A DNA stretch of 64,000 nt, taken from the NCBI RefSeq assembly GCF_030295935.1, contig NZ_AP027362.1:744001-808000 (forward strand). Reading direction: 5' to 3'. Origin of the DNA: Thalassotalea piscium (GTDB taxonomy: Bacteria; Pseudomonadota; Gammaproteobacteria; Enterobacterales; Alteromonadaceae). This document shows positions 40,066 to 62,000 of the stretch, piece after piece; position 1 is the stretch's first letter, and each line of letters starts with the position of its first letter. The translations under genes and the position numbers were made by a program. The notes under the pieces are model-generated. The model did not search any database and was not told the DNA's origin. It saw only the letters and a list, made by a program, of their open reading frames with translations.

Positions 40066-40084
40066 TATAAGTAAATATTAAACT

Positions 40085-40905: not shown

Positions 40906-40979
40906 AAAAAGTTAATACTACGAATAAAAACTTTACTAAAAAACAATCTCAATTTAAAAATTTATCAATGGAAACTATT

Positions 40980-42365
40980 ATGAGTACATCACCACTTACC
41001 TGTTTTAAAGCATACGATATTCGCGGAAAGCTTGGCGACGAATTGAATAACGAAATTGCGTATCGAATAGGTAGAGCATTTTCACAGCATACTAAAGCAA
41101 AGAGCGTTGTGGTTGGCGGGGATATTCGCTTAACCAGCGAAGAGTTAAAGTTAGCGCTTAGTAATGGATTAATGGATGGAGGCACCAATGTAATCGACAT
41201 AGGATTATGTGGCACAGAGCATATTTACTTTGCAACCAGTCATTTACAGTGTGATGGTGGTATTGTCGTTACAGCAAGTCATAATCCTATAGACTATAAC
41301 GGAATGAAGCTCGTACGCGAACAAAGTAAACCGATAAGTGGTGATACTGGGCTATTTGACATAAAGAAATTAGCTGAATTAAATAAATTTAAAGAAGTTA
41401 AAGCAAAAGGCAGTATGTCTACATTGGATATATCAAAGCCTTATACTAAGCACTTACTAACCTATTTTGACCCAGTTAATATCAAACCATTAAAAATAGT
41501 GGTGAATGCCGGTAATGGAACAGCAGGGCCAGCATTAGATGTAATAGAACATACTTTCAACCAACTAAAGTTGCCTGTTACATTCATTAAAATCAATCAC
41601 CAACCTGACGGCACATTTCCAAATGGTATACCTAATCCCTTACTAGTAGAAAATCGCTCAGCAACACAAAATGCAGTTATTACTCATAAAGCAGACTTTG
41701 GTGTTGCATGGGATGGAGACTTCGACCGTTGCTTTTTATTCGACGAAAATGGTGACTTCATTGAAGGGTACTATATTGTTGGCTTATTGGCAGAAAACTT
41801 TTTAGCGAAAAAACATCAAGCTAATCAAGTAAAAGAAAAAATTATTCATGACCCGCGCTTAACTTGGAATACAATCGATATAGTTAATCAGGCGGGTGGT
41901 GAAGCCATTCAAAGTAAAACTGGTCATGCATTCATAAAAGAAAGAATGAGAAAAGAAAATGCGATTTACGGTGGTGAAATGAGTGCTCATCATTATTTTC
42001 GCGATTTTTATTACTGTGACAGCGGGATGATCCCTTGGTTACTGATTGCTGAATTAATATGCTTAAAAGAAAAACCACTTTCTGAGCTTGTATCAGCACG
42101 AATCAAAGCATTCCCATCATCAGGAGAAATTAACAATATAGTTAAGCAGCCTAATATCGCCATTAAACGTGTTTTGGCATATTATCAGGAGCATGCATTA
42201 ACTATTGATGAAACCGATGGTGTAAGCGTAGAGTTTGCAGATTGGCGATTTAATCTTCGTTGCAGTAATACTGAACCTGTAGTCCGTTTGAATGTAGAAT
42301 CACGTGCAGATGAAGAACTAATGCAAACAAAAACGAAAGAAATACTGAGTATCTTGTTAGCATAA
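40980..42365 (+). CDS. manB: Phosphomannomutase/phosphoglucomutase
   Basis: This 461-aa alpha-D-phosphohexomutase has the CpsG/ManB N-terminus [18 protein letters not shown], the active-site Ser loop [13 protein letters not shown], the metal loop DGDFDRC and the sugar-binding loop [10 protein letters not shown]. It converts mannose-6-phosphate to mannose-1-phosphate for GDP-mannose. The start at 40980 has GGAA 6-7 nt upstream. An ATG four codons earlier (40968) is possible. It is the first gene after REP array E and the entry gene of the sugar block. Confidence 0.93.
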
Positions 42366-42395
42366 AATTGTTAACACATAATACCCCTCAACCTG

Positions 42396-42423
42396 ACCCT
42401 GTAATATAATGTCATTACAGGGT
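42396..42423 (+). terminator. Hairpin after manB, possible terminator
   Basis: ACCCTGTAAT (42396-42405) pairs perfectly with ATTACAGGGT (42414-42423) across an 8-nt loop. A T-rich tract is absent on the plus strand, so attenuation or a protein site is as likely as intrinsic termination. Confidence 0.4.
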
Positions 42424-42452
42424 TAAACAGAGTCTTTATTCTCCTATCTTAA

Positions 42453-44222
42453 TTGATAAATGTAGGTAGTAGGTTTAAACTACGCCGCACTCAAATAACT
42501 ACAGCGGGATGTATTTTGTATTTCGAGCAAAAAACAAGCTTTTCTATATTTACCTTTTTTTTCCTTTTAATTGTGATATTTTTAGCGTATTCAAACTCGT
42601 TTTTAGTTCCATTTTTATTCGACGATATAACGTCTATTGTCGAAAAACAAAAGGTTTATATAGAGGGCTTTTCTGCTATTTATCAAGAGTTTGGTCAACG
42701 ATTACTTGTGTACTTAACTTTTTATGGGAATTACCAACTCCATCAACTAGACGTATGGGGTTATCACTTAGTAAACACTTGCATTCATTTAATAAGTGCA
42801 TTCTTTGTGTACTTACTCACCTTAGAAATACTTAAAGCCAATCAAATTCTTGTTCTTAAAGAAAGGGCGCCGCTGTTAAATATACAGTGGTTTGCATTAC
42901 TGGTTTGTTTACTCTTTGCATTGCACCCGCTTCAAACTCAAGCGGTAACTTATATTGTACAAAGAACAACTTCGCTTGCAGCATTATTTTATATTGCAAC
43001 CATGTTCAGTTATTTTAAGTTCAGGTTTGCAGAAAAACATACGCACAAAACGGTAATGTTTATTGCTACTTTTGCCCTATTTGTTTTAGCCGTACTAACT
43101 AAGCAAAATACATATACATTACCTGGTGCGTTACTCGTACTTGAAATTATTTTTATCTATCCAATTTTACGTTATTCGCCGCGGATACCACTTATTATTG
43201 GTGCTTGTTTAACTGTAGTTATGGCAATTAGCTTGCTTATATTTCCAGAGATTGTAATTGCTCTAGATGCTGCGAGTAAAGAAACAACAGATTTTACTCG
43301 GTTGGCATATTTTGAGTCTCAATTAACTATACTTGTTCACTACATAACGCTATTTATTTACCCAGTAAACTTACAAGTAGAATATATTTACCCTCTAGCA
43401 GATGGTAATTTACTAGACAGCATAGGTTATTTATTTGCTTACGCAGTAGCGATTAGTGTTGCGTTTTTTTATCGTAGAAAAGAGCCAATTTTAGCATTTG
43501 CAATTATCTTCTTTTTTATTGCGCATGCAGTAGAATCTTCCTTTATTCCAATTTCAGATCTTGTTTTTGAACATAGAACGTATCTCCCCAACTTATCGTT
43601 ATGCTTGTTAGCTATATTTTTCTTGCAAAAAATAGCGAGCAAACAACTATTCACAGTAAAGGTTGTTACTCTATTAATAATAGTGGTGTTAGCTTACTTA
43701 ACTTATCAGCGAAACGAGGTTTGGTCTGACCCCGAAAAACTATATGCTAACGAATTAAAAATTAACGATAATAAACCAAGAATTTATGCAAGTCTTGGAG
43801 ATTATTACCGACTAGACAGCAAGCATAAGCTTTCAGCCGATAACTATAAAAAAGCCTATGAGTTAACAGGTGAATTTAACGACCTAGATAATCAAGGGTT
43901 TGATGCTAAGTTTGGCTATTTTAATAATTATATAGCAGCGCTTAGTAGAGCAGGGGAAAACAAAGAGGCTATTGCTGTAACATTACAATTATTACCGCAA
44001 CTTAAAGGGAGTAAATTTTTACCAATAATTTATACTAATTTGGGTAGTTTTTACTGGCAAGAAAAAAACTATTTACATTGCACAAAGTACATGTTTCAAG
44101 CAATGAAATTAAAACCAAACATGATAGAGCCAGTGATTGGTGTGGGTAAGTGTTTTGAAGAAATGGGTGATAAAGAAATGGCTTTACACATGTTCAATAA
44201 AGCGCGAAAACTCTCACAATAA
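42453..44222 (+). CDS. TMTC-like multi-pass membrane protein with C-terminal TPRs
   Basis: The longest frame is 589 aa. A TTG at 42516 preceded by GCGGGA gives 568 aa and starts close to the first membrane helix. About ten membrane segments fill residues 30-410. The luminal or periplasmic loop FLFDDITSIVE has the DD acidic pair typical of GT-C glycosyltransferases. The segment HPLQTQAVTYIVQRTTSLAAL is characteristic of bacterial TMTC-like proteins. TPRs cover about 440-589 (NLGSFYWQEKNYLHCTKYMFQAMKL). Eukaryotic TMTC proteins are O-mannosyltransferases. Placement between manB and manC suggests a mannose-using enzyme, but the acceptor is unknown. Confidence 0.72.
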   Translation: MINVGSRFKLRRTQITTAGCILYFEQKTSFSIFTFFFLLIVIFLAYSNSFLVPFLFDDITSIVEKQKVYIEGFSAIYQEFGQRLLVYLTFYGNYQLHQLDVWGYHLVNTCIHLISAFFVYLLTLEILKANQILVLKERAPLLNIQWFALLVCLLFALHPLQTQAVTYIVQRTTSLAALFYIATMFSYFKFRFAEKHTHKTVMFIATFALFVLAVLTKQNTYTLPGALLVLEIIFIYPILRYSPRIPLIIGACLTVVMAISLLIFPEIVIALDAASKETTDFTRLAYFESQLTILVHYITLFIYPVNLQVEYIYPLADGNLLDSIGYLFAYAVAISVAFFYRRKEPILAFAIIFFFIAHAVESSFIPISDLVFEHRTYLPNLSLCLLAIFFLQKIASKQLFTVKVVTLLIIVVLAYLTYQRNEVWSDPEKLYANELKINDNKPRIYASLGDYYRLDSKHKLSADNYKKAYELTGEFNDLDNQGFDAKFGYFNNYIAALSRAGENKEAIAVTLQLLPQLKGSKFLPIIYTNLGSFYWQEKNYLHCTKYMFQAMKLKPNMIEPVIGVGKCFEEMGDKEMALHMFNKARKLSQ

Positions 44223-44244
44223 AATAAAATAAAATAAAATAAAA
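44218..44244 (+). repeat. Pentanucleotide microsatellite (AAAAT)n
   Basis: About five copies of AAAAT begin at the stop codon of the TMTC-like gene. The repeat is outside the coding frame except for the TAA stop. It lies in the 110-nt gap before manC, where length changes could alter spacing but not frame. Confidence 0.75.
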
Positions 44245-44332
44245 AGTTAAGCGTATTGAATAACTTTAACATTACGCTAGAATACCTCGCTTGCTTGGTA
44301 GCTGATAACAAATAGTTAATTTAAGGATTTCT

Positions 44333-45751
44333 ATGTCTGTAATACCCGTTATTTTGTCTGGTGGTTCTGGTACACGCCTATGGCCATTATCGCGCAAACA
44401 ATACCCTAAGCAGTTGCTTAATTTAGCAGGTGGCGAATACACCATGCTACAAGACACGCTTAAGCGGGTATCACATATTGACGCTCCTATAATTGTTTGT
44501 AACGAAGACCATCGCTTTATGGTAGCAGAACAATGTCATTCCATGGGAATTACACCTAAATCTATTTTATTAGAGCCAGTAGCTAGAAATACAGCCCCTG
44601 CAATAGCGTTAGCTGCTTATCAAGCCCTAAGTTTTGACCAAAACGCTGTTATTGCGGTATTTCCAGCAGACCACGTTATTACCAATGCCGAAGCGTTTCA
44701 AAATGCTTTAAATATTGCTATTGCAGAAGCCCAAAACAATAAATTAGTTACCTTTGGTATTGTAGCGAACAAGCCAGAAACAGGCTTTGGCTATATCAAA
44801 GCCGATAAATCAGCGAAAGGTTTGGCATACCATGTTGAAAAATTCGTTGAAAAACCAGATTTAGCTACCGCACAGCAGTATATTGAATCAGGTGACTATT
44901 TTTGGAACAGTGGCATGTTTGTATTTAAGGCTGAGGTTTATTTAAAAGCACTTGAACAGTCAAACCCTAAAATCACCAGAGCCTGTGAAAAATCATTGAA
45001 ATTGGCTAAAACAGATTTAGACTTTATACGAGTTGATAAAGAAGCTTTTAAACAAAGCCCAGATGACTCAATAGATTATGCAGTTTTCGAAGATGCAGCG
45101 GAACAGTCAAATAATGTACGTGTAGTACCTATGGACGCCGGTTGGAGCGATCTTGGAAGCTGGTCTGCATTATGGGACATATTAGACAAAGACAAAAATG
45201 CCAACGCGTTTGTGGGGGATGTAATTTCAATCAATAGTAATAATAACTTGGTACATAGCCCTAAAAAACTGGTTGCCACAATTGGACTAGAAAACTTAGT
45301 GATAGTAGATACGGATGACGCGCTATTAATTGCCAATAAAGATCAAGTACAAGATGTTAAAAAAGTCGTAGGGCAATTAAAAAAATATCAACGCGATGAA
45401 CACCTTCAACATCGAGAAGTACATCGCCCATGGGGTTGTTACGACTCAATAGATAACGGTAAGCGCTACCAAGTTAAGCGAATAACGGTAAAGTCAGGTG
45501 CGAGCTTATCGCTTCAAATGCATTATCACCGCGCTGAACATTGGGTAGTTGTGTCGGGCAGTGCACTAGTACAAGTTGGCGAAAAAGAGCAATTATTAAC
45601 AGAAAACCAATCGGTGTATATACCTATTGGTGAAACTCACAGGCTAACTAATCCTGGAAAATTACCATTAGAACTGATAGAAGTGCAAAGCGGCAGCTAT
45701 CTGGGTGAAGATGATATAGTTCGCTTTGAAGATGTATTTGGGCGTTGCTAA
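44333..45751 (+). CDS. manC: Mannose-1-phosphate guanylyltransferase / mannose-6-phosphate isomerase
   Basis: This 472-aa bifunctional type II enzyme has the nucleotidyltransferase signature LSGGSGTRLWPLSRKQYPKQ (residues about 8-27), FVEKPDLATA and a C-terminal cupin isomerase domain (HRPWGCYDSID, LQMHYHRAEHWVVVSG). It makes GDP-mannose from mannose-1-phosphate and GTP, and the cupin interconverts fructose-6-P and mannose-6-P. Together with manB it forms a complete route to GDP-mannose. The length is that of the ManC/CpsB/AlgA family. Confidence 0.95.
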   Translation: MSVIPVILSGGSGTRLWPLSRKQYPKQLLNLAGGEYTMLQDTLKRVSHIDAPIIVCNEDHRFMVAEQCHSMGITPKSILLEPVARNTAPAIALAAYQALSFDQNAVIAVFPADHVITNAEAFQNALNIAIAEAQNNKLVTFGIVANKPETGFGYIKADKSAKGLAYHVEKFVEKPDLATAQQYIESGDYFWNSGMFVFKAEVYLKALEQSNPKITRACEKSLKLAKTDLDFIRVDKEAFKQSPDDSIDYAVFEDAAEQSNNVRVVPMDAGWSDLGSWSALWDILDKDKNANAFVGDVISINSNNNLVHSPKKLVATIGLENLVIVDTDDALLIANKDQVQDVKKVVGQLKKYQRDEHLQHREVHRPWGCYDSIDNGKRYQVKRITVKSGASLSLQMHYHRAEHWVVVSGSALVQVGEKEQLLTENQSVYIPIGETHRLTNPGKLPLELIEVQSGSYLGEDDIVRFEDVFGRC

Positions 45752-45948: not shown

Positions 45949-48900
45949 ATGTTTGTTAAGCTTCTTTTTAGTAAACTTTTTTTTATTGTATTTATTTTTA
46001 TTACTACAATAAATAATGTAGTTGCCGCCACGTCAACTTGGACCACCACTGAGCTCGTCAGTGAAACTGAATTACATTACAATGATCATAACTCCAATCA
46101 GATGGCAGTTTCATGGAACGGTAGGTTTGTAGCTTTTCAATCTTGTGCATCAACGCTAGTCGATTATGACAGTAATGGGCGTTGTGACATTTTTTTACGC
46201 GATACGGTGCTAAATACCACGGATATTATCTCAAAAAACTTATTAGGTTTTCCTGCTAATGGTGATTCTTATGCACCATCAATTTCTGCTGACGGTCGTT
46301 ATATAGCTTTTTATTCTAGAGCATCAGATCTTATTTTAATTGGTGGTAACTCTACATATGACGTGTATTTGTACGATAGGGTGATGAACTCAATAGAATT
46401 GATTTCTCTTGCAACTGATAATGTAAGAGGGAATGGTACTTCTTATGGACCATCTGTATCTGATGATGGTAATTTAGTTGTATTTACTAGTGCTGCAACC
46501 TCATTAGATATTGAACAAAATGATATAAATAATAGAGAAGATATTTATTTAAGAAACCGTAGTGCAGGGACTACTAAACGAATCAGTATTGCTGGAGATG
46601 GAACTGAAGGTGATCGAAATTCAGGTGATGCGGTTATAAGTGGTGATGGTAAATTCATCGCATTTTCATCTGATGCAACTACATTATTGCCTACTGATAC
46701 TGATACTTATGACGATGTTTATCGTTATGATATATTAAATGACAGCCTTGAACTGATCAGTGTTGACTCAAATGAATTAAAGAACGCGTACCGCCCTAGT
46801 ATTGCCCCAAGTATTTCCAGTAATGGTAATTTAATTGCTTTTCAGACTACAGGTTCGCTTGCTATTACAGATGGGGACACCAGAGATGATATTTACGTTA
46901 GAAATGTAAGTGCTGGTACTACTGTTCAAGTAAGTCTAAATGAAAATGGGGTTAATACTGAAGGGTGGGCTACCAACCCTAGTATTTCGGCAGATGGCAG
47001 TCGTGTGGCTTTTTCGTCTACCTATGACTCTTTTACTTCTGATAAACCTGATGCTACTAATCATGAAATATTTGTCCGTGACTTAATTTCGGGTACAACA
47101 GTTATGGCTTCTCATGCTTACGATAGTAGCTTCCCAGGCGACGGTGACGCACTTTTACCTAAACTATCAGCTAATGGTCAGTTTATTGTTTATTATACCG
47201 ACAGGCAGGAAATAAATGCCTTAGATGTAGATAATCTTGATGATGTGTTTATGTATGATTTATTATCAACTACAACCGTTAAAATTAGCGAACCTGCTGG
47301 ACAACACTATACCAGTGACGTTGATGGAGTCGCTCTCTCAAGTACAGGACGATTTGCTTTAGTACGAACAGATGCTACTAATGTTTTAAAAGGAGGAGGC
47401 TCATACGATGATTTATATTTAATAGATCGAGCACTTAATACCAAAGAGCGATTAATGTTTGGCACTCGGGGTGCAAATTTAAATAGAGATATTGGTGATG
47501 CAGGTTTTGCTATTTCTAGCGACGGAGATAAGATCGTATTTGCTTCTTCGGCAACGAATATAGATGTTAATGATACTAGCACTACATGGGATATTTTTTA
47601 TCACACTCGTAGTAGTGGCGTTACTAAACGTATCAGCGTTGGCCATGATGGCAGTGAAGCAAATGGTGATTCAGATAGTCCTGATATCTCAGGGGATGGG
47701 CGCTATGTTGTATTTACGTCTAGAGCAAGTAATATTGTATCCAATGGTGATAGTTATACAGATATTTACTTGTACGACGCAGTTTCTGAAGAAACCATTT
47801 TAGTCAGTAAAAATGCTAACGGCTTCTCAACAACAGGAACATCTTCAAATCCGAAAATAAGTAGTGCTGGCAATTATATTACCTACCAAACAACTAAACA
47901 TGGCGTGTTTGGGTATGACAGCGGCTATTCTCATCAAATAGCCTTGTATGAAGTAGCAAGTAAGCAAAATACGTTGGTAACACTCTCTGTGGGTGAAGAC
48001 CCAACTAACTCAAGCAACTATAAACCATCAATTTCATGGAATGGACGGTATGTAACATATAATTCAGATGCTACAGAGGAAATTATTGGTTATGATAATG
48101 ATCACTCTTCATACGATGATATACTTTTATATGACCGCGCAACTAACCAGACTCAATTAATTAGTTTAGATACTGATAATAGCCAAATTAGATATGCTTA
48201 TGATAGTGAGATTTCGGATAATGGTCAGAAAGTGGTTTTCAAAGGCTATAATGCTGCAAATGAAGAACATATCTTAGTGCGTGACTTAGTGGCAAACACC
48301 ACACATTATATAGCTGAAGCAGGTAATATTTCGGATCATATTAAACCGCGTATTTCTGCCTCAGGAGATATTGTTATTTACCCTTCTAAAATACCACAGT
48401 TAGACTCGGTGTTGGCTCATAGCACAATTACCCAAGCTTATATAGCAATTCAAACAACTGACAGTGATGATGATGGTATTCCTGACAACATAGACCTTGA
48501 CGACGACAACGACGGCATGTCAGATGAGTTTGAATTGGCTAACGGCCTAAACCCACTTGACCCAACAGATGCATTAGTAGACTCAGACAATGACGGTTTA
48601 ACTAATCTTGCCGAGTACTTAGCAGGTACCAACCCTCAAGACAATGATTCAGATAGCGACGGTATTTTAGATGGCGATGACTTATCACCGTTAATGCCAT
48701 TAACCGACAACCGCGGTATCGACTTTAATAGTAACGGCCTAGCAGACTTACTGCTTAGAAATAAAAGCACGAATCAATGGTACTTATACGGTATAGATAC
48801 CGACTTAAGCTTAGCGAGTTGGGGCGGTGTAGGGCTGACAACGGACAGTAACTGGACAGTACAAGACATAGGGCATTTAAATAATGATGTTAATGCTGAT

Positions 48901-50613
48901 GTACTGGTACGCCATGATAATGGCCATTGGTATCAATTTACCTTAGATGGTAACCGTAGTGTTACAGGCGATGTAGGGTTTATAGGACAGCTGCCACAAT
49001 CAAAAGACTTTGAATTTAAAGGATTGCAGGACTTTGATAACGATGGGCTATCCGATGTACTAGTCAGAAATAGCACCAATGGCAGTTGGTGGCTATATCG
49101 TCTTGATGGAGCTAAAGGCGTTGCGAGCTATCGAAGCTTAGGGGTAACAACTAACCAAGACTGGGTATTTGAAGGACTTAGCGACCTTAATAACGACGGT
49201 TATGTTGATGTGTTATTACGCCATAACACCAACGGTGCATGGTATGTTAACCACCTTGATGCGAATGGCGATGTATTATCAAGCTCAGGCGGATTAGGGG
49301 TAAGTCGCAATAGCGATTGGCAGGTTAAACGTCTTGTTGATATGAACAGCGATGGCGTGGTTGACTTATTGCTACAACATCAAAGCACTTATGCCTATGA
49401 AGCCGTGGCCTTAAACCTTAATCGCACAGAGCGTGTAGCAGGTACTCACAGCTTAAGCGCAGGTATCCCACAAGATGAAAACTGGGTACTTCAACAAGTC
49501 GCAGACTATAACCAAGACGGTAACGTAGACCTAATTGTACGACACAAAGCTGATGGCCGCTGGAAAGGCTTCTTACTTAATGGACAAGGCAACCTAGTAC
49601 CAGGTAGTCGTAACATGGGCATGACTAAAGATATCAACTGGCATGTTGTCCCTACAGAGCAAGCAGAAGAAGATGCAATAATCAACGATGACTTTAACGG
49701 CGATGGTATTCCCGACGTGCTTATGCGTAATAGCAATGGTATTTGGTGGATTAATCACCTTAATGGCAATCGTGGTCTTGCAGCTAATTCAGGCGGCATA
49801 GCGATGATAGGTGATACGAACTATCAACTTAAAGCCAAAGCAGACTTTAACAACGATGGTTTTGAAGATGTACTGGTGAGAAACATGAATACAGGAGTAT
49901 GGTTCATGTATCACTTAAACGGTGCAAGAGGGTTTGCAGCTAATTCAGGTGGTGTTGGCCTATCAACGAGCTTAGACTGGGAATTTAAAACAGCCGAAGA
50001 CTTTAATGGCGATGGTAACGTTGACATTTTAATGCGTAACAGCGTAACAGGCGGTTGGTGGATATATCATATGAATGGTGCGCGTGGTTTAGCGGCTAAT
50101 TCAGGTGGTATAGCCTTAACAACAAACGCAAGCTACGAGTTTACAACAGCGAAAGACTTTAATGGCGATGGCAATACCGACGTACTGGTGAGAAACAGCA
50201 GTACAGGGGCTTGGTACCTTTATCATCTTAATGGTAACCGTGGTTTTGCAGCAGGCTCAGGTGGTATAGGTATGAGTTACGACACCGACTGGGAATTTAA
50301 AGCCGCACAAGACTTTAACGGTGATGGTAATACCGACATTCTTGTACGCAATAGCGCAACTGGTGGTTGGTGGTTATACCACTTAACTGGTGCAAGAGGT
50401 ATTGGTGCGGGCTCTGGAGGTTTAGGACTAACAACTGGCGCAGCATGGCAGTTTAAGGCAGCCAATGACTTTAATGGTGATGGTAATACCGACGTGCTTA
50501 TACGTAACAGTAATGGCGCATGGTATCTGTATCACCTTAATGGCAATAGAGGCTTTGCCGCTGGCTCAGGTGGTGTAGGAATGACCACTAATGGCAGTTG
50601 GATGTATCAGTAA
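45949..50613 (+). CDS. Secreted PD40-like propeller protein with TSP3 and FG-GAP tail
   Basis: This 1554-aa protein has a signal peptide ([17 protein letters not shown]..., cleavage near VVAA). Residues about 30-830 are repeats of TolB/PD40 type (motifs such as [33 protein letters not shown]), about 14 blades or more, which would make two propellers. Residues about 839-915 hold TSP type 3 Ca2+ repeats ([20 protein letters not shown]). Residues 918-1554 are about ten FG-GAP/VCBS-like units with [14 protein letters not shown] and WYLYHLNG motifs. It is probably secreted and surface-associated and calcium-stabilised. No catalytic motif is visible. The tail from about 870 onward is shared with the next gene. 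Confidence 0.85.
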
Positions 50614-50650
50614 TAAGGATAGATAGCGCCCGATATATGTCGGGCGTTTT
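48510..50650 (+). repeat. Duplicated block, copy 1 (TSP3/FG-GAP tail and terminator)
   Basis: This stretch aligns without gaps to 52310-54450 (offset exactly 3800 bp). From about 49050 to 50650 I see only two differences (near 49101 and 50427). Two patches are clearly diverged, at about 48595-48660 and 48953-49045. The similarity ends at the T run of the terminator. Confidence 0.93.
50627..50650 (+). terminator. Rho-independent terminator after the PD40 gene
   Basis: CGCCCGA (50627-50633) pairs with TCGGGCG (50640-50646) around a 6-nt loop, followed by TTTT. It is identical to the terminator at 54427-54450. The longest frame of the next gene would start before it. Confidence 0.85.
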
Positions 50651-50669
50651 AAATATAGTGGAACATAAA

Positions 50670-53600
50670 GTGAACTTTCATCTAATTAAAAATTTAATAC
50701 TAAATAGTATTGTCATTAGTGTTTTCTTATTGGTTGGATTACTTTTTAGCATGAATTCTTATGCTGCAAAAGACACAAAACAATTATGGAATTTGACTCA
50801 GTCAATACCAAGCTCCTTTCTTGGTGACCCTACAACGTTTATAAGAAAGTCAATGAAAGGCAAACAAAGTGTTTTAATCAATAAAGATATTATTCGATCA
50901 TTAAAAGTAGGCGACACAATAATATTACCTTTATTGAATAATAAGAGTGCTGAATTTACCATCACAACCTATAAAGTAAAAAATAGTATTGTATCTATTA
51001 CAGGGAAAACTACAGAGCAGGATTTTGATTATCCTCTAGTGCTAACCCTTGGCGAGCGAAGCTTTTTTGGCCGAGTTGTTACATCAAACACTACGTATTC
51101 AATTAAAGCAATTGATGGTTCAGGTGAATTAGGCAAAGAAAGTGTCATTCATAAAAATCGACATACGGACAGAGTTGATTATTTAATCCCCCCAAAAAAG
51201 AATAAGACTAATAGCAATATTGTTAGTCCAAAATCTTTGTCCAAAAAAAACCGTCAGACCATAGAGACTGAAAGTGGAACGCCAACAGAGAATGTTACAA
51301 TTAAATGGTTAGTTGCTTATACGTCTGGCGCGTTGCAGGCTTACCCTGAAATTGAAACAAAACTGGTTCATATTGAATCCATAACTAATCAAATATATAT
51401 AGACAGCGGCGTTAATTTAACCCTTGAATTTGTTCATAAAACCCTTACTAGCTTAGCTGACAGTGAAAGTATGAATACAGCATTGTATAGATTAAGTGGG
51501 CAGAATGGTTACAGTATAAAAAATGATGCTGAAGTGAAAAGAATTTGGGATCTACAATTGGCTAATAAAGCTGATTTTATGACGCTAATTAAAGTGGAGC
51601 CAAGCGGAAGTTCAAGCTGTGGGTTAGGATGGGTTTTATCTTCTCCTGCCACTATTAAGATGACTAAAACTGTGGTTGATATTTCTTGTGCAGACTATGT
51701 TGTAGCTCATGAAATTGGCCATAATATGGGGCTAAAACATTCATATGAACAGGGGGATACTGGAGCAAATTATGATTTTGGGCGAGGTTATGGGGTAGCG
51801 AATGAATTTGTGACAGTTATGGCCTATGCTAGTGCATTTGGTGTTTGGGGTAATGATAAAATATATAAGTATTCATCACCTGAGTTAACGTGTAAAAATG
51901 GAATGCCTTGCGGGATTGACAAGAATCTTTCAAATGGAGCCGATGCTGTATATGCGTTAAATGCACACACGGTAGAATTTGGAAAGTTATATGATGAGAG
52001 TGTTGCTTATGTGAAGTTTGATGATGCAATCGCTCAATTACAAGATCAAACACTTGCTCAGTGTATAAAAGATGATTACCCGGATGCGATAGTTGTGAGC
52101 GAGGTCACCTCTATTGATTGTTATAATTATACAGTAACTGATCTAAAAGGGCTTAGTGTATTTTACTCATTAAACTGGCTCCAAGTTTCACAATTTAATT
52201 TACCTTGTTGGCAAGTCGATGTTGTAAATAATATTTGGGGTATTGAACAAGCTTATTGGGTTACTCAAAACTGTAAAGCTGATGGTAATGAAATTCAAGA
52301 CTTTGACAACGACGGCATGTCAGATGAATTTGAATTGGCTAATGGCCTAAACCCACTTGACCCAACAGATGCATTAGTAGACTCAGACAACGACGGTTTA
52401 ATCAGCCTTGAAGAATACCAAGCAGGCACAGACCCAACAAATAGTGACACTGATGGAGATGGTGTATTAGATGGCGATGACTTATCACCGTTAATGCCAT
52501 TAACCGACAACCGCGGTATCGACTTTAATAGTAACGGCCTAGCAGACTTACTGCTTAGAAATAAAAGCACGAATCAATGGTACTTATACGGTATAGATAC
52601 CGACTTAAGCTTAGCGAGTTGGGGCGGTGTAGGGCTGACAACGGACAGTAACTGGACAGTACAAGACATAGGGCATTTAAACAATGATGTTAATGCTGAT
52701 GTACTGGTACGCCATGATAATGGCCATTGGTATCAATTTACCTTAGACGGCAACCGCCAAGTAACGGGTGACGTAGGCTTTATAGGGCAACTACCTACAG
52801 CTAAAAACCTTGAATTTAAAGGACTGCACGACTTTGACCGCGATGGGCTATCCGATGTACTAGTCAGAAATAGCACCAATGGCAGTTGGTGGCTATATCG
52901 CCTTGATGGAGCTAAAGGCGTTGCGAGCTATCGAAGCTTAGGGGTAACAACTAACCAAGACTGGGTATTTGAAGGACTTAGCGACCTTAATAACGACGGT
53001 TATGTTGATGTGTTATTACGCCATAACACCAACGGTGCATGGTATGTTAACCACCTTGATGCGAATGGCGATGTATTATCAAGCTCAGGCGGATTAGGGG
53101 TAAGTCGCAATAGCGATTGGCAGGTTAAACGTCTTGTTGATATGAACAGCGATGGCGTGGTTGACTTATTGCTACAACATCAAAGCACTTATGCCTATGA
53201 AGCCGTGGCCTTAAACCTTAATCGCACAGAGCGTGTAGCAGGTACTCACAGCTTAAGCGCAGGTATCCCACAAGATGAAAACTGGGTACTTCAACAAGTC
53301 GCAGACTATAACCAAGACGGTAACGTAGACCTAATTGTACGACACAAAGCTGATGGCCGCTGGAAAGGCTTCTTACTTAATGGACAAGGCAACCTAGTAC
53401 CAGGTAGTCGTAACATGGGCATGACTAAAGATATCAACTGGCATGTTGTCCCTACAGAGCAAGCAGAAGAAGATGCAATAATCAACGATGACTTTAACGG
53501 CGATGGTATTCCCGACGTGCTTATGCGTAATAGCAATGGTATTTGGTGGATTAATCACCTTAATGGCAATCGTGGTCTTGCAGCTAATTCAGGCGGCATA

Positions 53601-54413
53601 GCGATGATAGGTGATACGAACTATCAACTTAAAGCCAAAGCAGACTTTAACAACGATGGTTTTGAAGATGTACTGGTGAGAAACATGAATACAGGAGTAT
53701 GGTTCATGTATCACTTAAACGGTGCAAGAGGGTTTGCAGCTAATTCAGGTGGTGTTGGCCTATCAACGAGCTTAGACTGGGAATTTAAAACAGCCGAAGA
53801 CTTTAATGGCGATGGTAACGTTGACATTTTAATGCGTAACAGCGTAACAGGCGGTTGGTGGATATATCATATGAATGGTGCGCGTGGTTTAGCGGCTAAT
53901 TCAGGTGGTATAGCCTTAACAACAAACGCAAGCTACGAGTTTACAACAGCGAAAGACTTTAATGGCGATGGCAATACCGACGTACTGGTGAGAAACAGCA
54001 GTACAGGGGCTTGGTACCTTTATCATCTTAATGGTAACCGTGGTTTTGCAGCAGGCTCAGGTGGTATAGGTATGAGTTACGACACCGACTGGGAATTTAA
54101 AGCCGCACAAGACTTTAACGGTGATGGTAATACCGACATTCTTGTACGCAATAGCGCAACTGGTGGTTGGTGGTTATACCACTTAACTGGTGCAAGAGGT
54201 ATTGGTGCGGGCTCTGGAGGTTTAGGGCTAACAACTGGCGCAGCATGGCAGTTTAAGGCAGCCAATGACTTTAATGGTGATGGTAATACCGACGTGCTTA
54301 TACGTAACAGTAATGGCGCATGGTATCTGTATCACCTTAATGGCAATAGAGGCTTTGCCGCTGGCTCAGGTGGTGTAGGAATGACCACTAATGGCAGTTG
54401 GATGTATCAGTAA
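50670..54413 (+). CDS. Secreted zinc metalloprotease with TSP3 and FG-GAP tail
   Basis: From GTG 50670 the protein is 1247 aa. The frame is open upstream to 50598, but that part crosses the preceding terminator. A hydrophobic signal segment (about residues 8-32, ending SYAA) is followed by a prodomain-like region. A metzincin-type catalytic domain has [11 protein letters not shown] (H347, E348, H351, H357), as in reprolysin/M12B-like and related enzymes, and a possible Met-turn VMAYAS. TSP3 repeats start at about 545 and the FG-GAP tail at about 615. The tail is nearly identical to that of the upstream protein. The protease is probably exported. The tail may be an adhesive or scaffolding module. 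Confidence 0.87.
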
Positions 54414-54450
54414 TAAGGATAGATAGCGCCCGATATATGTCGGGCGTTTT
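52310..54450 (+). repeat. Duplicated block, copy 2 (TSP3/FG-GAP tail and terminator)
   Basis: Second copy of the 2.14-kb block described at 48510-50650. It encodes the tail of the metalloprotease and includes the identical terminator. The surrounding sequences are unrelated. Confidence 0.93.
54427..54450 (+). terminator. Rho-independent terminator after the metalloprotease gene
   Basis: Same hairpin and T run as at 50627-50650. It also lies downstream of the convergent HTCS gene (stop at 54496), so the symmetrical GC stem may act for both strands. Confidence 0.85.
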
Positions 54451-54495
54451 ATTTAGTATAAATTGAATATTAATAGGGTTATATTATTTTCTAAG

Positions 54496-57400
54496 TTACT
54501 TGCGAAACGCTTTAGGGCTTAAATTAAACTCTTCTTTAAAATGCTTGTTGAAATATGAAGTATTTGTGTAACCGCACTCTTCAGCAATTATTTGTATTTG
54601 TTTATCCGTCATTAATAATTTTTTAGCTTTATTCATTCGAGATTTTTTTAATATTTCTGTAAATGTTTGGTCAAAATATTGTTTCAGTTTTCTACGTAGA
54701 GTTGAGGTCGACATATTATGAGCATCGGCTAGTTCTGCAATACTATAGCTTGAATTTTGCTGATTTGCTTTTAAGGACTCTTTGATCTGAATAATAAACT
54801 TATCTTGATTATTATCGATTATTTCAATATTTTCTTTAGTAGTAACATAATTTAGTTGTAACTGCTTTTGTGCTTCTTTGGTTGTAATTATATTGTTAAT
54901 TTTTAGCTGTAAATTACTCATTTTAAATGGCTTGTTTAGGTAATCGTCAGCTCCTAAAGAAAGACCTTTATATAGACTCGAATTGTCAGATTTGGCCGTT
55001 AGCAATAAAAAAGGTATATGCTTAAAGTCGTTAGATTGTTTAACGTGTTTACATAAATCAAAGCCATTCATTATTGGCATCATTACATCAGAAACAATAA
55101 TATCTGGTAGATCACCCTTTGTTTGTTGAAGGTATTCAAGTGCTTGGTTTCCATTACAGCAAAACGTAACACAATATTGCTTGGCTAATGTTTCTTTAAA
55201 TAAAATTGTTAAGTTAGTGTCGTCTTCTACAAGTAAAACGTTATAAACCTTTTTACTTGTATTTGAAGGGGTTGTGGAGTTGAGCTGATAACTTTTCTGT
55301 TTTTGGGGTGTTTGCTCTGTTGTTTCTGTTTGAGGTTGTTGACAAGATAATGGTAATGATAGAATTATTTTACAGCCTAGTTCAAAGTTGTTAGTAATGC
55401 TTAATGTGCCTTGGTTTTTATTGATGTATTCTTTTACGTTCCATAACCCTAACCCTGTTCCCTCAATGTGCTTTGATTCTCTATAGTATTTATAGCAAAT
55501 CTTGTTTAAATCTTTAAAACCAGGTCCTTGATCAGAAATGCAAAATACCAAATTATTATCCTTAAGGTATAAGGTTATTGTTACGATTGAGCCATTAGGT
55601 GAATACTTTATGGCGTTATCAATTAAGTTACCAAATATAATATGTTCAGAGTCAACGACTAAATTAGCGAAAACATCCTCCCTTACATCAGAATGAAAAT
55701 TTAATGTAATGTTAGATTTATTAGCCTGTACTTTATGGTGCTCAATAAGCGTTGTTATACTAGACCTTATGTTGGTTAACTCACATTGATTATTAGATGA
55801 TGCGGGATCAGCGTTAAGTAGCATATTCTTTACTAAGTAGCGCAAACGTTGCGACTGGCTTTCTACAATTGAAATATAATTGGCGTATTTAATTGAAAGT
55901 TCTTTTTTGGGAAGTAGATCAAGGTAATTTAAAATAAGTGTTAATGGCGTTTGTAATTCATGTGATGAAGACTCGAACATATGCTCTTTTTCTGCAATTG
56001 CTTTACTTAATAACTTTGTTTTTTCTTGTACTTTACTTTCGAGTAAAGTGTTTTGTCTTATTAGTTTTGTGCTTCTTCTTTTAAATAAAGCAATGATAGA
56101 TAGTATAAATAGAACTATGTAAATTATTTTGGCATAAAGTGACAACCAAATAGGGGGTGAAATTATAATCATTAACTTTAGATTGTTTTCTGCCCATAAA
56201 CCATCGCTGTTGCTACTTCCTGCTTCTAAAAGGTACTTACCGTATGTTAATGCAGAAAGGCTTATTTCTGGTTTTAATGTGGTAGCCCAATTACTATTAT
56301 TAATACGGTAACGATATTTTTTATTATTTTGATTAACATAATCATCACTGTGAAAAGTTATATTAATTTGCTGAGTGTCAGAGGTTAAATTTAATTTGGG
56401 TATATTGTTATTGGTTGTAATTTTATTCGTAACCTTCTTTCCATCTACAATTAGGCTGTTTACGTGGTGTTCGCTTGGGAGCACAGTATTATGAATTATG
56501 TCGGTTTTTGGTTTAAACCAAGTTAAGCCATAAAAGCCACCATAAATTAAAGTACCATCCGGGTTAAGGTGTGCACTATTAAGATCAAATAAATTGGTCG
56601 CTAGTCCATCGTTAGTTGTGTAAGTTTTAACTTCATTATTACATTCTGTAAGCTGGCATAACGTTACATTAGCGAGACCTTTTTCTGTACTTAGCCAATA
56701 CTGGTTTTCAGATATCTTAGTAACTGATTGTATTGTGTCATTTAATAAACCATCGTTAGCGTTCAATTGGCTAAATTCATTTCGACCCTTCATACGGTAG
56801 AGTAAACCACCGCCCCATGTCGCTATAGCCGGTTGTTGGTAGTCATCTATAGTAATATCCATAATAGCGCTATTATATAAATCTGCGCTATATGTATAAG
56901 TTTCTGAAATTGTAAAATCTCTATCTAACTTAAATAATCCTTCCGTTGCGAGTTGACTGCCTAACCAGATTTCACCCTTGTTATTTTGTGCCATACCCCA
57001 AACAGCACCTTCTATTACAGGTATTTTTTTAACAAGCTTCATATCTTTTCTATGATATATCAATACGCCATTGGTTGTGCCTATTAGTAATTGTTCATTA
57101 TCTATCGGCAGAAAACTGAGTAAACCTTGTATGTTTTCTGGAGAATAAATTTTATTAATAGTGTCATCTGTTAAGTTTATTTGGTACAAGCCGCTACCTT
57201 CGGTTGCAACCCATAGAATATTTTTATCTTTATATAAAGATCTAATGTGTACTTTAGTTAGGAATTGTTTGTCTGTTTGCCATGTATCTTGATGTTTAAC
57301 AATTTTAATCAGCCCGTTAGTTTGACTCCCCAACCATATAGTATTGTTATTAATTTTTATTATGTCTCGTAGTGAATGCCCTCCAGTTAATCGCACGAGA

Positions 57401-58572
57401 TCTGATTTATGTAAATTGTTGAATTTATTTAGTCTTGTAGAGGCTATTTTTAAACCCGGCGTACCATCAGCAATTAAGTATTGATCATCAGTTACTTTTA
57501 CTACACTAAAAGTCGACCCGCCCAAACTTGCAGAAGTTTTATCTTTTAGGGCAGATATTTCAGCTTTTTCATTGATTAAAAACAAACCGATATTAGTCTC
57601 TAATATCGTAGGTAGAGCCTTGGTATAACCAACACCTTTTATCCATTGTGCTAAATTGTTTTTTTGAGGGAGTAACAGAGATTCTAATTTATGGTTTAAT
57701 AAATCATATTTATAAGCGCCACATTCAGACAGAGCCATAATATGATTACTTGAAACAGTGTAAAAAATGGGGTTGTTAAACATATGAGCTCGAGTTTGTG
57801 CTTTTATACGTTTAAATTGTTCTTTACTACAAAATGCCACATCAATCGACGAAATTAATTCAGTTTCTTTAAAAGTTAAGTGACTTTTAGTGCTTATTAA
57901 ATGTAGAAGGTTATTAGTTAGAAACAGACCATAAAAACTATCACTGTGAGTTTTAAAAATTAAATTAAGTGGTAATTCAATGCTTTTGCTGTAATAAAGA
58001 CCTTTTTGCGTTAAAACATAAACAGAACTATTCGCATTATTAAGTTTAAAGTTAATAATGCGTTCATCTTGTGGTGTTGCTAATAGGAGACTATTTTTAT
58101 TAACTTTTGACGAATACAGAAATAATTCACTTGTAGTATTCCAAAGCCATTGTGAACTTGATATTTTTTCTGTGTGAAGAAATGTGTTTATTTGATTTAA
58201 ATTATATGGGGCTTTAACATAACCATCTTTAATGCGGTCAAAATAAATTACGTCTGATAAAAAGGCATTTATGGCTAAATATCTGTTACCTAACTCATGA
58301 ATACTACTTATAGCGCCATTAAAAGCATGCGCATTAATGGCAAATCTATCATCTAACTTTACTAAGTTTTTGTTTGTATATCGATAAAGTCCTGAATCCG
58401 TGCCTATATAAATACGTTTTTGTTTATCAACAAACATTGTTCTAATTAACAAGTCTTTCAATGCAGGGTCATTAACAGGTGCTATAACTAAATTGTTAGC
58501 ATTACCATTATTTGAACAAAACAAACACAATATATAAAGAAAAAGAACTAGTTGATGTACAACTAACTTCAT
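54496..58572 (-). CDS. Hybrid two-component system (HTCS) regulator with AraC-type output
   Basis: From ATG 58572 the protein is 1358 aa (the frame is open 17 codons further upstream to 58623). A signal/anchor segment (LVLFLYILCLFC) is followed by a periplasmic Reg_prop two-component propeller (about 30-690, motifs such as IWLGSQTNGLIKI, ILWVATEGSGLYQI), a Y_Y_Y domain (about 720-800) and a membrane helix (about 810-830). The cytoplasm holds HisKA with H871 (SSSHELQTPL), HATPase_c (DNAIKYSPNG, GTGLGLWNV), a receiver with D1162 (IIVSDVMMPIMNG) and an AraC helix-turn-helix (STLRRKLKQYF, IAEECGYTNTSYFNKHFKEEF). One polypeptide thus senses, phosphorylates and binds DNA. In other bacteria HTCS proteins sense oligosaccharides. 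The target here is unknown. Confidence 0.93.
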   Translation of the reverse strand: MKLVVHQLVLFLYILCLFCSNNGNANNLVIAPVNDPALKDLLIRTMFVDKQKRIYIGTDSGLYRYTNKNLVKLDDRFAINAHAFNGAISSIHELGNRYLAINAFLSDVIYFDRIKDGYVKAPYNLNQINTFLHTEKISSSQWLWNTTSELFLYSSKVNKNSLLLATPQDERIINFKLNNANSSVYVLTQKGLYYSKSIELPLNLIFKTHSDSFYGLFLTNNLLHLISTKSHLTFKETELISSIDVAFCSKEQFKRIKAQTRAHMFNNPIFYTVSSNHIMALSECGAYKYDLLNHKLESLLLPQKNNLAQWIKGVGYTKALPTILETNIGLFLINEKAEISALKDKTSASLGGSTFSVVKVTDDQYLIADGTPGLKIASTRLNKFNNLHKSDLVRLTGGHSLRDIIKINNNTIWLGSQTNGLIKIVKHQDTWQTDKQFLTKVHIRSLYKDKNILWVATEGSGLYQINLTDDTINKIYSPENIQGLLSFLPIDNEQLLIGTTNGVLIYHRKDMKLVKKIPVIEGAVWGMAQNNKGEIWLGSQLATEGLFKLDRDFTISETYTYSADLYNSAIMDITIDDYQQPAIATWGGGLLYRMKGRNEFSQLNANDGLLNDTIQSVTKISENQYWLSTEKGLANVTLCQLTECNNEVKTYTTNDGLATNLFDLNSAHLNPDGTLIYGGFYGLTWFKPKTDIIHNTVLPSEHHVNSLIVDGKKVTNKITTNNNIPKLNLTSDTQQINITFHSDDYVNQNNKKYRYRINNSNWATTLKPEISLSALTYGKYLLEAGSSNSDGLWAENNLKLMIIISPPIWLSLYAKIIYIVLFILSIIALFKRRSTKLIRQNTLLESKVQEKTKLLSKAIAEKEHMFESSSHELQTPLTLILNYLDLLPKKELSIKYANYISIVESQSQRLRYLVKNMLLNADPASSNNQCELTNIRSSITTLIEHHKVQANKSNITLNFHSDVREDVFANLVVDSEHIIFGNLIDNAIKYSPNGSIVTITLYLKDNNLVFCISDQGPGFKDLNKICYKYYRESKHIEGTGLGLWNVKEYINKNQGTLSITNNFELGCKIILSLPLSCQQPQTETTEQTPQKQKSYQLNSTTPSNTSKKVYNVLLVEDDTNLTILFKETLAKQYCVTFCCNGNQALEYLQQTKGDLPDIIVSDVMMPIMNGFDLCKHVKQSNDFKHIPFLLLTAKSDNSSLYKGLSLGADDYLNKPFKMSNLQLKINNIITTKEAQKQLQLNYVTTKENIEIIDNNQDKFIIQIKESLKANQQNSSYSIAELADAHNMSTSTLRRKLKQYFDQTFTEILKKSRMNKAKKLLMTDKQIQIIAEECGYTNTSYFNKHFKEEFNLSPKAFRK

Positions 58573-58685
58573 CCACTGAAACCTTATTAAACATAAAAGC
58601 TGAAAAACATTAACACAATACAATACTCTTTAGAATAATTTGTAACTGTAAAGTTGATCCCACGCAATGTATTGGAACCAAAAGC

Positions 58686-59034: not shown

Positions 59035-62000
59035 ATGATAAAAATAAAATTCCTCTTCATTATCTCATTGTTATTTTTTGGTAATTCTTTCGCAGCTTTT
59101 TCGCAAACTAAAGAAACTGCCACCTTACTTCCTCAATTCAACCAAACATTCAATGTTAGTTATGATGCTTCCACAGAGCATTGGTTCAAGTTTGACAAGT
59201 TGGCGGGAGAAGGAGTTACCGTTGTCGCTAGTGGGCATTTTAATAATTCAAGCGGAATGAATGTTTTTCTTTATGATGCTGCCGATAATCTTTTAGGAAG
59301 CTTCGGCTATTCCACTTTGACTGACGGTAATACCTTATCATTTGACGAGCAAATATCTTCAGCAGGTACGTATTATTTAAAAGTATCAGGTCAGGCGGTG
59401 GGTAATTATGACTTAGCGGTTTATTCCACGTGGTCTTCTGCGGGTGCGCACGATGGGTTACGTACCTATAAGCACAGTTTTGGTAGTGCGCATTATTTAG
59501 TATCAGGGTCATATACTCGCACTCATCTAGAGCAAAATAATGCACCGTTAACAGATTATTATCGTTTTAGTGCGAATGCAGGTGATACATTTACGGCTGC
59601 GATAACGGGAGCTTTTAATGCAGGTTGGGCACGAGTAACGCTTTATGATGAAAACTTTGTTTCATTAGGGCAAATCCAAACGGTTTATGATGGGGAAACA
59701 AAAGAATTATCAGAAGCTATAACTAAAACGGGGCTTTACTACCTTAGTATTTCAGGTACGTCTGTCGGTAGTTATCAATTAGCTATTACTGGAGCCGAAA
59801 CAGATAGTGATAGTGATAATGATGGGCTTAATGATGCCGTTGAATATTTCCACCATTCTAACCCTTATGTGAAAGACACTGACGGTGATGGTGTTGAAGA
59901 CGGTGCAGAGCTTGTAAACGGTGGTAACCCAAACGCCTTCAAAGAATATGCTCATGAAAGTGTTTCAAATGTAAAATCAACAGCCACTCAGTTACCTTAC
60001 TTTAATCAAATGTTAACAGCAGAATACCAAGGGACTTCGAATACAGAGCATTGGTTCAAGTTTGACAAGTTGGCGGGAGAAGGAGTTACCGTTGTCGCTA
60101 GTGGGCATTTTAATAATTCAAGCGGAATGAATGTTTTTCTTTATGATGCTGCCGATAATCTTTTAGGAAGCTTCGGCTATTCCACTTTGACTGACGGTAA
60201 TACCTTATCATTTGACGAGCAAATATCTTCAGCAGGTACGTATTATTTAAAAGTATCAGGTCAGGCGGTGGGTAATTATGACTTAGCGGTTTATTCCACG
60301 TGGTCTTCTGCGGGTGCGCACGATGGGTTACGTACCTATAAGCACAGTTTTGGTAGTGCGCATTATTTAGCATCAGGGTCATATACTCGCACTCATCTAG
60401 AGCAAAATAATGCACCGTTAACAGATTATTATCGTTTTAGTGCGAATGCAGGTGATACATTTACGGCTGCGATAACGGGAGCTTTTAATGCAGGTTGGGC
60501 ACGAGTAACGCTTTATGATGAAAACTTTGTTTCATTAGGGCAAATCCAAACGGTTTATGATGGGGAAACAAAAGAATTATCAGAAGCTATAACTAAAACG
60601 GGGCTTTACTACCTTAGTATTTCAGGTACGTCTGTCGGTAGTTATCAATTAGCTATTACTGGAGCCGAAACAGATAGTGATAGTGATAATGATGGGCTTA
60701 ATGATGCCGTTGAATATTTCCACCATTCTAACCCTTATGTGAAAGACACTGACGGTGATGGTGTTGAAGACGGTGCAGAGCTTGTAAACGGTGGTAACCC
60801 AAACGCCTTCAAAGAATATGCTCATGAAAGTGTTTCAAATGTAAAATCAACAGCCACTCAGTTACCTTACTTTAATCAAATGTTAACAGCAGAATACCAA
60901 GGGACTTCGAATACAGAGCATTGGTTCAAGTTTGACAAGTTGGCGGGAGAAGGAGTTACCGTTGTCGCTAGTGGGCATTTTAATAATTCAAGCGGAATGA
61001 ATGTTTTTCTTTATGATGCTGCCGATAATCTTTTAGGAAGCTTCGGCTATTCCACTTTGACTGACGGTAATACCTTATCATTTGACGAGCAAATATCTTC
61101 AGCAGGTACGTATTATTTAAAAGTATCAGGTCAGGCGGTGGGTAATTATGACTTAGCGGTTTATTCCACGTGGTCTTCTGCGGGTGCGCACGATGGGTTA
61201 CGTACCTATAAGCACAGTTTTGGTAGTGCGCATTATTTAGCATCAGGGTCATATACTCGCACTCATCTAGAGCAAAATAATGCACCGTTAACAGATTATT
61301 ATCGTTTTAGTGCGAATGCAGGTGATACATTTACGGCTGCGATAACGGGAGCTTTTAATGCAGGTTGGGCACGAGTAACGCTTTATGATGAAAACTTTGT
61401 TTCATTAGGGCAAATCCAAACGGTTTATGATGGGGAAACAAAAGAATTATCAGAAGCTATAACTAAAACGGGGCTTTACTACCTTAGTGTTTCAGGTACG
61501 TCTGTCGGTAGTTACCAATTAGCTATTACGGGAGCACAAACAGATGGCGATAGTGATAATGATGGGCTTAATGATGCCGTTGAATACTTTCACCATTCTA
61601 ACCCTTATGTAAAAGACACTGACGGTGATGGTATTGAAGACGGTGCAGAGCTTTTAAACGGTGGTAATCCGAATGCCTTCGCAGAATATGCTCATGAAAG
61701 CGTTTCGAACACTAAATCAGCAGCTACACAGTTACCTTACTTTAATCAAATGTTAACAGCAGAATACCAAGGGACTTCGAATACGGTTCATTGGTTCAAG
61801 TTTGACAAACTCGCGGGAGAAGGAATTACAGTTGCCACGACAGCACATTTGAACAATTCATCACCAATTAGAGTATTTCTTTATAGCGATGCTAATCAGC
61901 TACTTGCCGATTCTAGTAATTTTTATGATGGTAATACTGTTTCATTTGATGAAGAGATAGCATCAGCAGGCACTTATTATATTAAAGTAACAGGCGCTGG

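Follow-up and report, generated by a model that had tools for sequence, protein, structure and literature searches.

A common FG-GAP tail behind unlike heads in a cluster of putatively exported proteins of Thalassotalea piscium

In the genome of Thalassotalea piscium (contig NZ_AP027362.1) two adjacent genes, here called A and B, encode secreted-looking proteins with unlike N-terminal heads and nearly the same C-terminal tail of FG-GAP repeats. The question raised by this locus is what keeps one tail so alike behind heads that are not alike at all. The answer we favour, and judge to have an even chance of being right, is that the tail is a lectin-like chassis that would dock different secreted proteins on the polysaccharide of the producing cell, with recombination keeping the tails alike. 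The window analyzed is 64,000 nucleotides long and covers positions 744001-808000 of a one-contig, 3.90-Mb genome. Three further copies of the tail gene (C, D and E) are described in window numbering continued past its end.

The shared block of genes A and B

Gene A (45949-50613, forward strand) is an open reading frame (ORF) for 1554 amino acids that predicts a signal-peptide-like start, a PD40/WD40-like propeller head by Pfam, a TSP3 linker, and the FG-GAP tail. Gene B (50670-54413, forward strand, 1247 amino acids) likewise predicts a signal-peptide-like start, TSP3 linker and FG-GAP tail, with a head that Pfam and NCBIfam place near the Reprolysin/Mep72-like metzincins. The match to NCBIfam Mep72 (1.1e-44, 153 bits) is below the equivalog cut-off of 645, and the length of B assumes a start at GTG 50670, GTG 50658 and TTG 50598 also being possible. 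FG-GAP_3 (PF13517) matches the tail of A with 97.5 bits and that of B with 118.8 bits, against a curated threshold of 26.9. An earlier sequence-only reading had described a propeller and a metalloprotease head in front of an FG-GAP tail, and the Pfam assignments (PD40, Reprolysin type and FG-GAP_3) agree with it.

The shared block consists of the end of the linker, the tail, and a terminator. Alignment and windowed identity place it at 48505-50651 in A and 52305-54451 in B, both on the forward strand, with 58 differences over 2147 bp and no gap at an offset of 3800. The differences are concentrated in two patches, one in the TSP3 linker (48601-48666, 26 of 66 bases unlike B) and one in the tail (48946-49040, 26 of 95 bases), where B is the odd one and A, D and E are alike; only six fall elsewhere. 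Over the last 1611 bp (49041-50651) A and B differ at exactly two positions, 49101 and 50427. The longest gap free of differences is 1326, a length that was never reached when 58 differences were placed at random 10000 times. The similarity extends as far as the T run (positions 50651 and 54451) of a terminator-like hairpin that follows A at 50625-50651 and B at 54425-54451, again on the forward strand, with folding energies of -16.4 and -18.6 kcal/mol (z -3.7 and -4.9). The gap-free offset of 3800, the two diverged patches, the roughly two differences in the final 1.6 kb, and the end of similarity at the T run had all been noted by eye, and the alignment bears them out. The hairpin after A lies approximately 10-25 nt upstream of the GTG starts of B, and no space where a promoter would evidently fit remains between them. 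Transcription of B may depend on read-through.

Five tail genes with private heads

A search of the genome for more genes with this tail added three to A and B, so that the tail occurs five times, always inside the same 34 kb; a 300-bp DNA probe likewise finds five places. Gene C (66254-68671) has a head with a single RHS repeat, gene D (68788-73446) a propeller head of ELWxxDGT repeats, and gene E (75293-79276) a TSP3-rich head with no other head family. The tails of all three also match FG-GAP_3. Aligned apart from the tails, no pair of heads matches (0/10 in blastp at E 1e-6), while the tails are homologous. By eye, the tail comprises 12 repeats, six per half, and its last few residues are common to all five proteins save one or two changes in C. 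A signal-like hydrophobic N-terminus is found in all five. Judged from these sequence features, the five neighbouring genes probably encode exported proteins that each consist of a signal peptide, a private head, a TSP3 linker, and the common FG-GAP tail. Another place with FG-GAP repeats, at 3.24 Mb, holds an open frame of 295 residues.

Two other assignments were considered. Pfam matches to TcdB_toxin_midN in the tails overlap the FG-GAP repeats, and no stretch passes alone; we regard them as repeat cross-matches. The RHS gene next to C and the RHS repeat in C prompted a reading as polymorphic toxins of the RHS or contact-dependent inhibition (CDI) type. We did not adopt it because the shared part here is C-terminal and the heads vary, which is the reverse of the usual polymorphic toxin layout.

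Gene conversion among the tails

The tail core (49102-50426 in A, forward strand) is identical in A, B, D and E over the 441 codons compared. With approximately 287 synonymous sites in this core, the summed synonymous divergence has an upper bound of approximately 0.0105 per site. The linkers differ in all pairs. The tail of C has only 59.7% DNA identity to the other four over its last 312 codons. Between C and A, the synonymous divergence (dS) is 2.34, which is saturated, and the nonsynonymous divergence (dN) 0.32 in columns 330-759 of the alignment; in columns 129-329 dS is 0.33, and columns 260-312 contain no A-C mismatch. Synonymous divergence per window, proposed as a check in the sequence-only reading, shows stretches of zero beside strongly diverged ones.

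The copies also group in conflicting ways. Site 50427 places A with E against B with D, and the terminators place A with B against D with E. In columns 129-169, A and B show 0/123 differences, and D is nearest to C (5/123). Shared runs of identity exceed those in all of 2000 shuffles for nine of the ten pairs (A-C, p 0.009), and for five of the six pairs when only A, B, D and E are shuffled (B-D, p 0.0015). Such shuffles respond to regional constraint as well, to which synonymous counts are less exposed. Since site patterns conflict and identical tracts lie beside diverged patches, several exchanges among the copies are needed. On this sequence evidence, repeated gene conversion between copies is the best account of the tail mosaic and is well supported. 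It may fairly be inferred that conversion is still ongoing. The earlier suggestion that conversion holds one tail while the heads differ is therefore upheld by the zero synonymous divergence beside diverged patches, by the conflicting sites, and by parallels in Paraglaciecola.

Tail genes in related bacteria

Thalassotalea is represented in our comparison by one genome only. The Paraglaciecola sample, from the same family as the source, consists of 12 tail genes in genome G329 and six in genome G339; the count of 12 excludes three matches, two of them on contig C15 and the third within the head of gene 9 (C10:27222), and locus L108 was set aside. Both genomes show the same layout, the best matches mostly beginning approximately 300-450 residues from the C-terminus and reaching the last residue. 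Some are longer, where the heads too are related. The Paraglaciecola tail is approximately 30% identical to the C-terminal half of the Thalassotalea tail. Head pairs match at 1e-6 in 11 of 55 cases within G329 (11 heads, some of the matches being partial; the head of gene 6, a protein of 420 amino acids, is too short to compare), in 0/15 within G339, and in 3/66 between the genomes. Pfam scans of 12 of the 18 heads gave, among others, DUF11, beta-helix with FG-GAP, PQQ/BamB, RCC1, InlB-type and TSP3 families, and two heads had no family. The head of one Paraglaciecola tail protein (L095:8337-11900) itself contains approximately 20 FG-GAP matches.

Windows of 40 codons reach an identity of 1.00 within a Paraglaciecola genome, whereas the maxima between species are 0.80-0.92. 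Median dS is 0.49 within G339 (15 pairs), 1.37 within G329 (from the 59 pairs, out of 66, that yielded a value) and 2.15 between the two (72 pairs). Tails are thus closer to each other inside one genome than across species, the pattern of segmental concerted evolution. All five of the closest pairs looked at have windows with a dS of 0.00 beside strongly diverged ones, and shared runs exceed all 300 shuffles for 10/15 pairs in G339 and 12/66 in G329. The tail tree mostly follows the genome; tail a339_2 joins b329_5 at a low support of 0.65, and Marisediminitalea tail 3 stands apart. Between lineages the median dN/dS of the tail is 0.06 (72 Paraglaciecola pairs, finite dS only), a rough value as dS is saturated.

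Neighbouring tail genes whose heads are unlike also occur in Alteromonas portus and Marisediminitalea aggregata, which brings the layout to four genera by name, the source genus counted. A search of a genome contig collection with the Thalassotalea tail found no relative, the source and very near genomes possibly being left out of that collection. Among 59 relatives, the tail has matches at 1e-20 in three genomes. Within the family it is found in 5/395 genomes at E 1e-30, the source included (best three candidates per genome). The Paraglaciecola tail is found in 6/395 at E 1e-60, the Thalassotalea source not among them (best five per genome), and in 1/295 genomes of the order; its close relatives are rare within the family. 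One genome from another family of the order (G050, locus L009 and other loci) has 59 tail matches at E 1e-12 and many FG-GAP genes on short contigs, and perhaps holds a much larger tail expansion.

Predicted fold of the tail

The C-terminal half of the tail (49645-50610 in A, forward strand; six FG-GAP-type repeats by eye) was modelled with AlphaFold2 at moderate confidence (pLDDT 72.6, pTM 0.76). The model matches the lectin PVL over 305 of 322 residues, which predicts a propeller fold. VIA served as a second look at the Foldseek candidates. Among the 50 matches listed, each of the first 24 is either a lectin or UmbA4, itself a lectin protein, and propellers of other kinds begin at a Z of 14.1. 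The PVL-type fungal lectins (Psathyrella and Agrocybe) are the best structural match (Z 22.5-23.1) at only 15-17% identity, followed by UmbA4 with teichuronic acid (Z 17.0, 22% identity) and the Photorhabdus and BP39L lectins (14-15). PVL-type lectins are seven-bladed, while we count six repeats in each half of the tail. Foldseek gives the half a modest match to Bap1 (6mlt), at E 3.5e-6 and a TM score of 0.35. VCBS-like propellers, which are close to FG-GAP ones, typically serve in carbohydrate recognition and also in protein-protein interactions (PMC9218822). On the basis of the model, the tail may be a lectin-type beta-propeller that binds a glycan. What sequence searches firmly support is membership of the FG-GAP family.

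Neighbourhood, regulation and export

The cluster is flanked on the left by genes for phosphomannomutase and ManC, and on the right by MBOAT, ABC-2, sulfotransferase and GT1 genes. The left-hand genes lie just upstream of A (40968-45751), and between them is one for a 589-amino acid protein with weak TPR matches and hydrophobic stretches; at a guess, this could be a mannosyltransferase. The G339 cluster is followed by genes carrying a sugar-transferase DXD domain, WcbI and other glycosyltransferase domains, and the G329 cluster has a sulfotransferase gene nearby. A sulfotransferase-like protein recurs near the clusters of G339 and Marisediminitalea. Two more proteins recur near those of Paraglaciecola and Marisediminitalea, one small and membrane-anchored, the other 400 residues long and lacking a Pfam family. 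A 186-residue neighbour in Thalassotalea does not match these recurring proteins.

Inside the cluster, a gene on the reverse strand (54496-58623) encodes a hybrid sensor kinase with Reg_prop, response-regulator and AraC-type output domains. From its position, it may regulate the cluster. An RHS/YD-repeat gene (59035-66267, forward strand, within the window up to 64000) lies directly upstream of C; it has no tail of its own and is linked to the cluster by position only. It contains 870-bp tandem units at 59173-62307. In the 300-bp stretches sampled, three units are 100% identical and a fourth is 84% identical, though the translated units differ in places. Antisense ORFs at 59240-59545, 60110-60415 and 60980-61285 sit on this repeat and are probably artefacts. 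Between D and E, a 519-amino acid secreted-looking protein (L007:11690-13249) has no clear family and no tail. The intergenic region before the phosphomannomutase gene (40084-40943) consists of 140-bp tandem repeats, mostly 97-98% alike with the last sampled copy at 68%, each of which contains a palindromic sequence resembling repetitive extragenic palindromes. Positions 38000-64000 gave no Rfam match at the gathering score, and the window contains no tRNA.

For export, a simple rule finds signal-like N-termini in 25 of 30 tail proteins overall. The genome encodes T2SSL (173.6 bits), the sole component of the type II secretion system (T2SS) that was looked for. With signal-like N-termini and a T2SS component both found, the proteins may be exported by T2SS.

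A possible role for the tail

The proteins would be exported by the Sec pathway and type II secretion, after which the tail would dock each onto the extracellular polysaccharide of the producer, probably the product of the genes that flank the cluster. Different heads, including a protease and other propellers, would then be held on the cell coat. Since the tail would have to fit one ligand, purifying selection and conversion would keep the copies alike; the heads fall outside the homology and so differ. The sequence-only reading had considered the tail a common anchoring or secretion chassis with exchangeable heads. The chassis remains plausible in view of the lectin-like model of the C-terminal half and the polysaccharide genes nearby, and the anchoring itself is a prediction only.

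Several points weigh against polysaccharide docking. A shared fold by itself does not show function. The Photorhabdus lectins (Z 14-15) barely exceed unrelated propellers (13-14), and Foldseek alone places KICSTOR propellers at the top for the C-terminal half. The full-tail model is poor (pLDDT 68.2, pTM 0.52), with Foldseek TM scores of about 0.2-0.3. By phmmer, the C-terminal half matches only CRTAC1 (E 0.0071), and a profile of the Paraglaciecola tails gives no match at 0.001. UmbA4 was matched at 1.6e-17 by a mixed profile that included two distant rows, and was not found with the Thalassotalea C-terminal half or the Paraglaciecola tails alone. In addition, the two complete A. portus tails compared are 69% identical to each other and each 98% identical to its orthologue in a metagenome-assembled genome (L104; head parts 97.3% and 93.9%), and the Marisediminitalea tails, at 58-74% identity, show no homogenisation. 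As the tails of these two species have diverged, homogenisation occurs in some lineages only.

The tails might instead be alike through adjacency alone, conversion being a by-product and the tail having no common role beyond that of a stable extracellular propeller. Every copy does lie inside 34 kb, long identical stretches by themselves offer recombination a substrate, and other local tandem DNA, the 870-bp units of the RHS gene, is also very alike. However, the tails appear constrained between lineages, as far as the rough dN/dS allows, and they stay homologous beside unlike heads in four genera, even in A. portus where they are not homogenised. We consider adjacency alone possible, on the doubtful side.

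A bolder proposal is that the array is a head-exchange system, in which homologous recombination between tails can add, delete or swap heads as cassettes and each time restores a docking tail. As the tail recurs along the array, most heads are flanked on both sides by similar tails of 1.3-2 kb. Recombination would take place within the cell or with incoming DNA, and the protein set of the coat would evolve by cassette replacement. We think this unlikely.

Alternatively, the tail could serve chiefly to direct export or sorting, as an address tag at the C-terminus, and not as a glycan-binding anchor. With the C-terminal domain of the type IX secretion system, PEP-CTERM and GlyGly-CTERM, a single C-terminal part is attached to many different secreted heads, and the tail is C-terminal in all 18 Paraglaciecola and all five Thalassotalea genes, behind mostly unlike heads. 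Unlike those sorting parts, the tail is a large repeat propeller without a hydrophobic segment. In the last 60 residues of 30 proteins, the highest mean hydropathy over 15 residues is 1.09 (for L109 and L110 the end may be truncated or different), and a hydrophobic tag of the PEP-CTERM or GlyGly-CTERM type was rejected. A repeat propeller of 300-650 residues is also large for a tag, and a T2SS component is present. A sorting role is quite unlikely.

A single recent burst of duplication could have put one tail behind several heads, the patches being later replacements from elsewhere, and the near-zero divergence among four copies would fit it. However, the tail of C is old and diverged apart from a short identical tract, the terminators of A and B differ from those of D and E, the linkers differ in all pairs, and recombination would still be required to make the patches; we regard such a burst as very unlikely. 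An assembly artefact, in which repeat reads were collapsed or polished to one sequence, is hardly credible, for although differences between repeats can be lost when multi-mapped short reads are used for polishing, the genome is one contig in which each copy has a distinct head and flanks, the sharp diverged patches and the two-state site 50427 survive, and two other genomes contain similar mosaics.

Comparison with known systems

The docking chassis has its closest analogy in Bap1 and RbmC of Vibrio cholerae, secreted matrix proteins in which a common conserved beta-propeller binds Vibrio polysaccharide (VPS) and other domains differ (PMC10102183). Docking here would work as it does for Bap1 and RbmC on VPS, with a shared propeller, in this case predicted, and unlike remaining domains. 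However, those are two proteins whereas the arrays described here have 5-12, and homogenised DNA is not described for Bap1/RbmC in the parts of the source available. For the tail DNA, the nearest parallel is Helicobacter pylori babA/babB and homA/homB, in which the 3' segment evolves in concert within a strain, the 5' segment is divergent, and gene conversion has been described (PMC3960876). The tail end is likewise alike within a genome, but the H. pylori genes encode outer-membrane adhesins of related sequence. Both systems serve as analogies, and we do not claim membership in either family. To our knowledge, the shared segment of babA/babB and homA/homB is not a propeller.

The Streptomyces umbrella toxin protein UmbA has a C-terminal six-bladed beta-propeller lectin behind other domains, and UmbA4 binds teichuronic acid (PMC13274773). 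As far as that source goes, the part of UmbA that varies is the C-terminal lectin, which follows a trypsin-like domain, whereas the Thalassotalea array is the reverse; the umbrella particles also have another bacterium as their target. By analogy, the tail array may be a variation on known principles, a shared propeller and segmental concerted evolution. We did not find an array of this sort in the open-access full-text literature searched, which is no proof of absence.

If the docking chassis is correct, T. piscium and some other Alteromonadaceae would have a modular system for display on the cell coat. Many secreted proteins of unrelated kinds would share a single lectin-like tail, and in some lineages the tails would stay interchangeable through recombination. 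This would widen the Bap1/RbmC principle from two adhesins to gene arrays and join it to segmental concerted evolution, and it would provide a handle on FG-GAP repeat proteins that are now without a function.

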